Of a stretch of 43,619 bases of DNA, positions 1 to 33,668 are shown piece by piece. This DNA comes from Alphaproteobacteria bacterium (GTDB taxonomy: Bacteria; Pseudomonadota; Alphaproteobacteria; Rs-D84): contig WRHR01000007.1 of the NCBI GenBank assembly GCA_009783145.1, positions 1 through 43,619 of the forward strand. The letters run 5' to 3'. The translations under genes and the position numbers were made by a program. Every line of letters begins with the position of its first letter. Within the stretch, counting starts at the first letter, position 1. The notes beneath the pieces are model-generated. The model searched no databases. It saw only the letters and a program-made list of their open reading frames with translations, and was not told the origin of the DNA.

Positions 1-37
1 ATCTGCTCGGCCTGCGGAACGAAATAGGACGAAATGC

Positions 38-159
38 GTGACGCGAAACGCGAGACGCGTAGTTGGATGCAACAATGCGCAATGTCCATTATAATGGACA
101 ACGTTATTTAGCTATCCGAACCACGCGTTTCGCGTTTCGCGTTTCGCGTTTCGCGTCAC
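38..159. repeat. Palindromic element, copy 1: tandem-repeat arms around a conserved core
   Basis: The left arm (38-60) is about three 7-bp units of the CGCGAAA/CGCGAGA type. The right arm (123-159) is about five units of CGCGTTT ending CGCGTCAC, and it is the reverse complement of the left arm apart from copy number and one substitution. The core between them has GCAACAAT (69-76) and the perfect 18-bp palindrome TGTCCATTATAATGGACA (83-100). The right arm ends five bases before the plsX start, so no ordinary Shine-Dalgarno site fits there. Copies 2 and 3 share the core but have different arms. Confidence 0.85.
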
Positions 160-163
160 GATT

Positions 164-13918: not shown

Positions 13919-13932
13919 TGGCCCAGAAAATC

Positions 13933-14065
13933 GTGATGCGAGACGCGAAACGCGTATTTCGTGCAACAATAAGCGTTGTTCATTATAATGGACAATATTG
14001 TTTAATGAACAGTATTGCTTGTAGTTCTATGAATCACGCGTCTCGCGTCTCGCGTCTCGCATTAC
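13933..14065. repeat. Palindromic element, copy 2, in the rplM leader
   Basis: The left arm 13933-13955 has about three 7-bp units (CGAGACG type). The right arm 14036-14065 has about four units of CGCGTCT; the arms are complementary apart from copy number. The core has GCAACAAT (13963-13970) and TGTTCATTATAATGGACA (13977-13994), the copy-1 palindrome with one change. TAATGAACA at 14003-14011 repeats a half-site and is the exact reverse complement of 13977-13985. It precedes the rplM Shine-Dalgarno site by a few bases. Confidence 0.85.
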
Positions 14066-14078
14066 GAACGAGGAAACA

Positions 14079-25350: not shown

Positions 25351-25393
25351 TAAAAAACTTTATTAATTTTTTGATGGACGATACATAGGTATA

Positions 25394-25512
25394 AATTCGT
25401 GCAGGTGAAGGTGCAAGTGCAGGTGGGTTAGAGAACACGAATGCGGTTGTCCATTATAATGGACAATGCATATTGTTGCACTCATTCACCTGCACTTGCA
25501 CCTGCACGAATT
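25394..25512. repeat. Palindromic element, copy 3, between the porin gene and acpS
   Basis: The left arm 25394-25425 has five 6-bp units of the GTGCAG/GTGCAA type. The right arm 25487-25512 has four units, CACCTG, CACTTG, CACCTG, CACGAA. They are exact complements apart from the missing unit. The core holds the perfect palindrome TGTCCATTATAATGGACA (25448-25465) and ATTGTTGC (25472-25479), the reverse complement of GCAACAAT, so this copy is inverted relative to copies 1 and 2 and points toward the porin gene. Confidence 0.85.
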
Positions 25513-25518
25513 TTCTTC

Positions 25519-31853: not shown

Positions 31854-32309
31854 ATGGCATTTTCATTCTTGAAACCAGCGGTGAAGAAAGCTCCGGCGAA
31901 AAAACCGGCGGCGAAGAAACCGGCGGCAAAAAAGCCGGCGGCGAAAAAACCTGCTGCAAAGAAACCGGCAGTGAAGAAAGTCGCGGTTAAAAAACCCGCG
32001 GTCAAAAAACCTGTCGCAAAGAAAGCTCCGGCGAAGAAAAAGCCGGCTGCGAAAAAAGTCATGAAACTGGCGGTGAAAGCCCCGGTTGCAAAAAAGGCTG
32101 TCAAAAAGGCTCCGGCGAAGAAAAAGCCGGCGGTGAAGAAACCGGTTGCTAAAAAAGCTCCGGCGAAAAAACCGGCGGTAAAAAAGCCTGTCGCGAAAAA
32201 AGCTCCGGCGAAGAAAAAGCCGGTTGCGAAAAAACCGACAGTGAAAAAGCTGGCCGTTAAAAAGCCTGTCGCCAAAAAGGCCGTAAAAAAGCCGGCGAAA
32301 AAGAAATAA
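31854..32309 (+). CDS. Histone H1-like Lys/Ala/Pro-rich DNA-binding protein
   Basis: 151 residues, almost entirely KKPAAKK, KKAPAKK and KKPVAKK-type repeats of five to ten residues after MAFSFLKPAV. This is the composition of bacterial H1-like proteins (such as Hc1/Hc2 and AlgP-type tails), which bind DNA without sequence preference. It lies inside the phage structural cluster between scaffold and capsid, and has its own promoter and terminator, so it is an independently expressed insert (a 'moron'). It could compact DNA in the host nucleoid or in virions; neither is shown by sequence. A strong Shine-Dalgarno site supports it. The opposite-strand frame is only its shadow. Confidence 0.85.
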   Translation: MAFSFLKPAVKKAPAKKPAAKKPAAKKPAAKKPAAKKPAVKKVAVKKPAVKKPVAKKAPAKKKPAAKKVMKLAVKAPVAKKAVKKAPAKKKPAVKKPVAKKAPAKKPAVKKPVAKKAPAKKKPVAKKPTVKKLAVKKPVAKKAVKKPAKKK

Positions 32310-32487: not shown

Positions 32488-33303
32488 ATGTCTGACTCAA
32501 TAACTCAGGTATTCGTAAAACAATTCGAAGCCGACGTTCATCTTGCTTATCAGCAGATGGGCACAAAGCTGCGCAATACAATTCGCAGCAAATCCGGCGT
32601 TATCGGCTCCAGCACCACTTTCCAGAAAGTAGGCAAAGGCGCCGCCAACACCAAAACCCGTCATGGCCTGGTTCCGGTCATGAACTTGAACCACGAGCCG
32701 GTCGTATGCAACCTTACGGACTATTACGCGGGCGACTGGATTGACGCTTTGGACGAACTCAAAACCAACATCGACGAGCGTCGCGTCGTAGCAAGCGCAG
32801 GCGCGTACGCGCTGGGGCGCAAGACCGACGATTTGATCATCGCGTCCATGGCGGCGGCAACGAACCTTATCGGAACCGGCGCAACCGGTTTGACCAAGAC
32901 CTTGATTCTGTCCGCTGTCAAAGCCCTGAATGCCAAAGACGTGCCGGATGACGGACGCAGATTCTGCGTCGTCGGAGTTCAGCAATGGAACGAGTTGTTG
33001 GCCATCGATGAATTCGTATCCGCCGAATATGTCGGAAACGAAACCCCGTTGGTCGGCGGGTATGAAACTCGCAAGTGGCTGGGTATCAACTGGATTATGC
33101 ATAACAGCCTGCCGGTTGCTTCCAGCAAGCGCGACTGCTTTATGTACCACGCATCCAGCGTCGGACACGCCTGCGGCCAGGAAGTCAAAAGCGACATAAC
33201 TTGGCACGGCGAGCGCGCCGCCCACTTCATCAGCAACTGCATGTCTCAAGGCAGCGTGCTGATCGATCAGGACGGCATTGTCAAAGTACCATGCGCTGAG
33301 TAA
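32488..33303 (+). CDS. Phage major capsid protein
   Basis: 271 residues. The pattern fits the HK97-fold coat protein group often labelled Phage_capsid_2: an N-terminal arm (ITQVFVKQFEADVHLAYQQMGTKLRN), an E-loop-like strand (TFQKVGKGAANTKTRHGLVPVMNLNHEPV), and a central DYYAGDWIDALDELKTNIDERRVVASAGAYALGRKTDDLIIASM. That last segment is diagnostic of coat proteins of T7-like and related podoviruses. A perfect AAGGAGG sets the ATG at 32488. It is followed by a repeat-arm hairpin and then the tail genes. A terminator hairpin lies just upstream, so its transcription may need read-through or a local promoter. Confidence 0.85.
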   Translation: MSDSITQVFVKQFEADVHLAYQQMGTKLRNTIRSKSGVIGSSTTFQKVGKGAANTKTRHGLVPVMNLNHEPVVCNLTDYYAGDWIDALDELKTNIDERRVVASAGAYALGRKTDDLIIASMAAATNLIGTGATGLTKTLILSAVKALNAKDVPDDGRRFCVVGVQQWNELLAIDEFVSAEYVGNETPLVGGYETRKWLGINWIMHNSLPVASSKRDCFMYHASSVGHACGQEVKSDITWHGERAAHFISNCMSQGSVLIDQDGIVKVPCAE

Positions 33304-33307
33304 AAAC

Positions 33308-33422
33308 AAGTAGGAAGTAGGAGGTAGGAAGTAGGAAGTTGGTGACTAAGAACTTATTCTATAAATTGAAAGAATGCTCTTATTCTATTTACCTCCTACC
33401 TCCTACTTCCTACCTCCTACTT
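33308..33422. repeat. Arm-only palindromic element inside the prophage
   Basis: The left arm 33308-33342 is five 7-bp units (AAGTAGG/AGGTAGG). The right arm 33391-33422 is the inverted array (CCTCCTA/CTTCCTA). The 48-base AT-rich centre has a direct repeat of CTTATTCTAT and an ATTCT...AGAAT inverted pair, but not the GCAACAAT/TGTCCATTA core of the chromosomal copies. Confidence 0.8.
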
Positions 33423-33440
33423 AAAAAAACGGAGTTTTTC

Positions 33441-33668
33441 ATGTCTTTTCAAAACAAAAACTTATCCGTAATCGCGTATGCGAACGGATTCACTCTTTGG
33501 CATTACGCCGCCAACGAGACCATGGCGACTATTTCCGCCAGCGGATATTTCAACAATGTCCGCACTCTGATGAATATCGGAGACATAGTCATCATCAACG
33601 CGTCCGACAATACGGCGATTAAAAAAATTAACGTCACGGCCCAGAATATAACGACTGCCGCCATATAA
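33441..33668 (+). CDS. Small virion-associated protein of unknown function
   Basis: 75 residues starting MSFQNKNLSVIAYANGFTLWHY, continuing with mixed strands (GYFNNVRTLMNIGDIVIINASDN) and ending NVTAQNITTAAI. Similar short proteins follow the capsid gene in several podoviruses, but the role is unknown; a head decoration or fibre protein is possible. GGAG precedes the ATG at 33441. A longer frame starting at 33339 would translate through the right arm of the palindromic element and is rejected. It lies between capsid and the gp11-like adaptor. Confidence 0.65.
   Translation: MSFQNKNLSVIAYANGFTLWHYAANETMATISASGYFNNVRTLMNIGDIVIINASDNTAIKKINVTAQNITTAAI

Follow-up and report, generated by a model that had tools for sequence, protein, structure and literature searches.

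The gene for the major head (capsid) protein of a phage-derived cluster is separated from the gene that follows it, in an alphaproteobacterial genome, by a hairpin built of 7-bp repeats, and the question raised by this locus is whether such a structure is a regulatory region of the phage, a mobile element or something made in place. The stretch of DNA analysed (43,619 nt, hereafter the window) is contig 7 of that genome (G000; 946,699 bp in 24 contigs). The hairpin covers 115 nt of the forward strand (33308-33422) and consists of two inverted heptad arrays (GTAGGAR, about 4.5 units each) enclosing a 50-nt centre. Its left arm (33308..33339) holds 4.6 tandem heptads of the forms AAGTAGG and AGGTAGG, its right arm (33390..33422) 4.4 inverted heptads (TACCTCC/TACTTCC), and the arms are 93% complementary in the best 28-nt register; the centre (33340..33389, here called core A) is an AT-rich, imperfect palindrome with two copies of CTTATTCTAT. 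Allowing up to one mismatch, GTAGGARGTAGGA occurs six times in the window, always inside the hairpin, against 0.01 occurrences expected. The RNA fold predicted for the element has an energy of -52.3 kcal/mol (z = -7.9), a stability that none of 200 shuffles equalled. The arrays, their complementarity and the fold thus confirm the hairpin with 7-bp repeat arms that a first-pass annotation had placed between the two genes.

The upstream neighbour (32488..33303, forward strand) is identified as the capsid gene by PHROG 3437 (E=4e-73) and by the Pfam family Phage_capsid_2 (PF19821, E=2e-69); just upstream of it lies a gene for an HC2 histone-like protein rich in lysine, alanine and proline (31854-32309). 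The downstream neighbour (33441..33668, same strand) is supported by PHROG 18004 and by alignment in relatives. The right arm of the hairpin stops a few bases short of CGGAG, a putative Shine-Dalgarno-like site of the downstream gene which, with its spacer, takes up 33429..33440 on the same strand. No Rfam family scored above its gathering threshold for the hairpin, and an intrinsic terminator was considered and rejected, no terminator-like site being called at this position.

Both genes belong to a structural gene cluster of phage origin (29223..41277, forward strand), with endolysin-like, T7-type capsid assembly, HC2-like, capsid, tail, tail fibre and M23 peptidase genes and a terminase fragment, the terminase match spanning just the middle of the profile. 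The capsid gene is present in 29 of the 36 genomes of the order that were searched, mostly as a single copy, and its identity declines with kinship (about 80% within the genus, 68-78% within the family and 62-69% within the order). In the sister species of the same genus (G001), the cluster has the same gene order and follows the same pyruvate-phosphate-dikinase-like host gene. Judged by sequence comparison, the supposed prophage is a syntenic cluster of phage origin that has been passed on vertically; it may be a gene transfer agent or a domesticated phage. The proposal that the element is active in or captured by a phage finds no support at this locus, because the cluster is vertically inherited, and a mobile element borne by a prophage was rejected on the same grounds of vertical inheritance and synteny. 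Four phage contigs (L307-L310) do carry such elements, each with 3-4 pairs, and one of these contigs has an element immediately downstream of a major head protein gene; the capture idea therefore holds elsewhere.

A sequence belonging to the normal regulation of the phage should recur at the same junction in related phages. In 26 viral contigs whose capsid is 71-78% identical, the spacer downstream of the capsid gene is only about 24-45 nt long and contains no hairpin of this kind; likewise, no heptad pair was found in any of 80 viral loci (603 kb). The same junction measures 58 nt in G001, with an 11-bp hairpin, and in another member of the family (G005) it bears a hairpin of a different heptad, AGGTTTR. 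Since the viral contigs have short junctions and the sister species only a small hairpin, the 115-bp unit is, by this comparison, a lineage-specific gain, and the reading as an insertion is upheld. A conserved phage regulatory region was rejected on the strength of the 26 viral relatives, some relatives having unrelated hairpins there. The use of the same site in different genomes (the capsid junction in G005, the RsmA gene in G003) was seen, at an element density at which an excess over chance is not demonstrable.

The hairpin had also been described as an arm-only relative of the chromosomal copies, with a centre of its own. This proved wrong, because the centre recurs, with the same GTAGGAR arms, at four other places in G000 (C2:84298, C2:88167, C2:33334 and C4:30795). 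The five copies, arms and centre together, are 75-100% identical, and two of the other core-A copies (e35 and e37) have added a net 126 and 138 bp relative to the aligned sites of G001. The centre is indeed AT-rich and unlike that of the other copies in the window, as had been stated; it is not peculiar to this copy. The design common to the hairpin and the chromosomal copies was borne out by two further hairpins of the window (30..160, upstream of a plsX-like gene, and 13931..14067, upstream of an rplM-like gene, both names read from sequence), which have arms of another heptad, CGARACG, around a different palindrome, core B (TTGTCCATTATAATGGACAA type). A net 130 bp of the second of these is missing from G001. 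At 25393..25513, hexad-like arms (GTGCAG/GTGAAG/GTGCAA) enclose an exact core B palindrome (25447-25466).

A mechanical search of 415 kb of G000 (the window and 20 further stretches, 44% of the genome) identified 65 inverted pairs of period-7 arrays, with none in 767 kb of G001 and none in Markov shuffles. For periods from 4 to 12, there are 88 arrays of period 7 against six of all others together, and 59 of these 88 strong arrays are paired and 29 single. The arrays draw on more than ten heptads (GTAGGAR, CGARACG, RATTAGC, ATTTACG, YAATGAC, ATAAGTT, AGAGCAY, AGTGWAT, AAAGAAT, GGATGAT, AGAGTGR and TTATYCG), the median arm is 4.3-4.4 units long, the median loop is 50 nt, and several copies are located just upstream of start codons. 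Variation within a class falls on very few positions: in GTAGGAA-type units (n=93) it reaches 32% at position 7 and 14% at position 5 (at most 1% elsewhere), in CGAAACG-type units (n=58) 50% at position 4 (at most 3% elsewhere; CGA[A/G]ACG) and in AGAGCA[C/T/A] units 63% at the last position (at most 4% elsewhere). Copying of one arm from the other via the hairpin is unsupported in the CGARACG and ATTTACG classes, where arms within an element resemble each other no more than arms of different elements do; in the GTAGGAR class, arm likeness within elements gives it weak support (3 of 500 permutations). When aligned to G001, 45 of the 65 elements could be placed, with 23 gains of about the length of the element, 20 smaller or negative net changes and two larger ones.

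The claim that arms and core are separable stands, with one palindromic core in several arm types and arms around native sequence. Core B and its close variants occur at 31 places in G000, as well as in 13 of 59 other genomes searched, and are found in CGARACG, RATTAGC, GTAGGAR and AATCGT arms, besides the hexad-like arms of the window. In the RsmA gene, arms enclose the native NLPYN motif, with a net 12 and 18 nt added, and the MurG and PAP2 genes have heptad arms around native sequence, in all three cases in frame; these and similar gene names rest on conserved motifs and on aligned G001 sequence rather than on a family scan. The same two loops around NLPYN bear inverted heptad-like arms in both G000 (L341) and G003 (L343), with different heptads (AGAGTGR and a decayed GGATRAT, respectively). 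The reading frame also stays open with elements inside the UvrC (+41 aa), ThrRS, QueH, ComF-like, UvrD-like and TopA genes, so that even core enzymes, UvrC and ThrRS among them, tolerate in-frame insertions in this reduced genome.

In the 92%-complete G000, no DDE_Tnp_1 (PF01609), rve (PF00665) or Y1 (PF01797) transposase was found; despite the GTAG motif, a RAYT/REP element was rejected for want of a Y1 (RAYT) match. Direct repeats at the flanks, a feature that wanes with age, did not reveal target-site duplication above chance (2.96 versus 2.82; 294 of 1000 permutations). G000 has a stand-alone reverse transcriptase (RVT_1) gene (C1:39297-40313, L030/L031), and RVT_1 matches were obtained in 15 of the 36 genomes searched. 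A 99-aa ORF belonging to no Pfam family lies upstream of this gene.

The reading of the observed architecture, multi-copy spread, lineage-specific gain and empty sites that we favour, and hold to be probable, is that the hairpin at the capsid junction is a copy of a short, non-autonomous, MITE-like class of hairpin insertions, which spreads as a unit, was gained after the split from the sister species and probably acts on mRNA. On this reading the whole unit, GTAGGAR arms together with core A, entered the spacer of the inherited cluster after that split; it spreads in one piece within G000, where there are five core-A copies, and would presumably move in trans. Other palindromic elements of bacteria suggest, by analogy, that it probably acts on the mRNA, where a stem of about 33 bp after the capsid stop codon, ending beside the ribosome-binding site of the downstream gene, would likely alter the stability or the relative expression of both genes. 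Against this reading count the finding of no target-site duplication above chance and the negative search for DDE_Tnp_1, rve and Y1 transposases. In addition, 20 of the 45 elements that could be placed are something other than simple gains, several having arms that flank native sequence, an outcome that ordinary transposition of a single unit does not produce, and about a third of the strong arrays (29/88) are single. Elements with native centres need another process, perhaps, though we think it unlikely, enzymatic writing of heptads at both borders of a segment. A polymerase or reverse transcriptase would then add 4-5 lineage-specific heptads at each of two borders, leaving inverted arrays around native or mobile DNA and replacing some native sequence. 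The arms around conserved native motifs in RsmA, MurG and PAP2 speak for such writing, as do the occurrence of one palindromic core inside different arm types, the lack, in two large classes, of any greater likeness between arms of the same element than between arms of different ones, the tight unit number and the confinement of variation to one or two heptad positions. It is nonetheless a doubtful explanation of the present hairpin, given that core-A elements clearly spread as units and that no enzyme is tied to writing; the reverse transcriptase is not diagnostic as a writer because element-free G001 has one too. In its widest form, the idea is that of a widespread, undescribed activity writing 4-5 lineage-specific heptads with a specified degenerate position, inverted at the borders of a segment and overwriting native DNA in frame, with heptads changing from genus to genus under a constant design and GTAGGAR being reused in Clostridia, phage contigs and this unrelated lineage; we put this forward with low confidence.

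Two explanations do without mobility, and we judge both improbable, the second marginally more so. A pre-existing hairpin may have been converted in place to heptad arms by local slippage and template switching, in keeping with the different hairpin of G001 and the AGGTTTR hairpin of G005 at the same capsid junction and with the PAP2 element (e19), which differs from G001 by a net 6 bp only; but slippage would predict neither identical heptads at dozens of unrelated loci, or one centre at five, nor an exclusive period of 7 with a single degenerate position. Alternatively, the arrays may be immobile sites for protein binding or regulation, favoured by selection at gene borders; this is the reading given for Geobacter, where paired hepta/octanucleotide arrays are interpreted as IHF/HU sites (PMC2700814). 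Such a role would suit the copies just upstream of start codons, but not the absence of any from the sister species, the many different heptads, the in-frame copies inside core genes or the lack of the hairpin in capsid relatives. Set beside its element-free sister, G000 has gains that can be dated to a lineage, sites seen empty, arms that enclose native catalytic motifs and degeneracy at single positions, and this contrast therefore makes it testable whether heptad arrays were transposed, written or slipped.

The insertion class that we favour can be compared with several known systems. Over-represented heptad repeats have been noted in bacteria since at least 2007, without a mechanism (cited in PMC4692102). 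In Xanthomonas, the available portion of the report by Rehm et al. (2015, PMC4692102) describes paired inverted GGGAATC heptad arrays, with 70-75 convergent, stem-loop-capable pairs per genome; heptad units (with a clear preference for four there) and inverted pairs are thus common to both cases. Those arrays differ in using one G-rich heptad, read as quadruplex-forming, and in that 83% of repeats are common to the two species compared, and the same portion reports neither shared cores nor arms around native gene segments. In Geobacter metallireducens, paired "global regulator binding sites" of 3-5 tandem hepta/octanucleotides are described in the accessible part of the paper (PMC2700814), which resemble the G000 elements in forming opposite-strand pairs at variable distance, in having several unit sequences per genome and in being missing from G. 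sulfurreducens; unlike here, they are taken as fixed IHF/HU sites, and empty sites and core swapping are not analysed in that part. G000 shares with these two systems closely spaced arrays of 4-5 tandem heptads, on opposite strands and at many loci. Prokaryotic MITEs and Rickettsia palindromic elements (PMC10969869) are also short and multi-copy, with inverted repeats, stable transcripts and in-frame gene insertions. The G000 elements likewise have terminal inverted repeats, measure less than 500 bp, lack coding capacity, are multi-copy and occupy sites empty in relatives, and copies other than the intergenic one at the capsid junction form in-frame palindromes in genes (UvrC, ThrRS, QueH and ComF-like). 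They differ in that G000 showed no target duplication above chance and no partner transposase of the DDE_Tnp_1, rve or Y1 families, in their stems of many kinds of tandem heptads and in their exchangeable or native cores. TAACTGA heptamer arrays of Beggiatoaceae and cyanobacteria (PMC4679880) are similar in lying near start codons and in their patchy spread across phyla, but are direct repeats with inverted pairs almost absent (1 of 170 sets). Within the literature searched, paired heptad arrays are therefore already known, and what is new is the many heptads per genome, the core swapping, the native centres and the lineage-dated gains.

Beyond G000, inverted pairs of other heptads were found in other genera of the family (G002, G003, G005, G008, G009, G013, G014 and G028), and none in the short stretches sampled from the remaining genomes. 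The AATTAGC pair pattern had no match in viral contigs. GTAGGAR arrays occur in many phyla, with inverted pairs frequent in Clostridia and Christensenellaceae MAGs; the clostridial GTAGGAR units vary at the same position as those of G000 (28%, and at most 3% elsewhere), a result that the search pattern retrieving these loci favours. In the Clostridia MAG RGIG3310 (L104, L126, L129, L158 and L177), GTAGGAR hairpins lie within a larger, terminator-like inverted repeat, AAGGACACTTTAA..TTAAAGTGTCCTT. The same design is seen with octads (AGTGACAA) in place of heptads in G008 (L074 and L093). Finally, clusters of a TTGTCCTTTATAAAGGACAA palindrome, spaced by a few hundred bases, are present in G000 (C15:16527-17805) and in G012 (C34:112775-128740), and resemble repeated recombination or operator sites.
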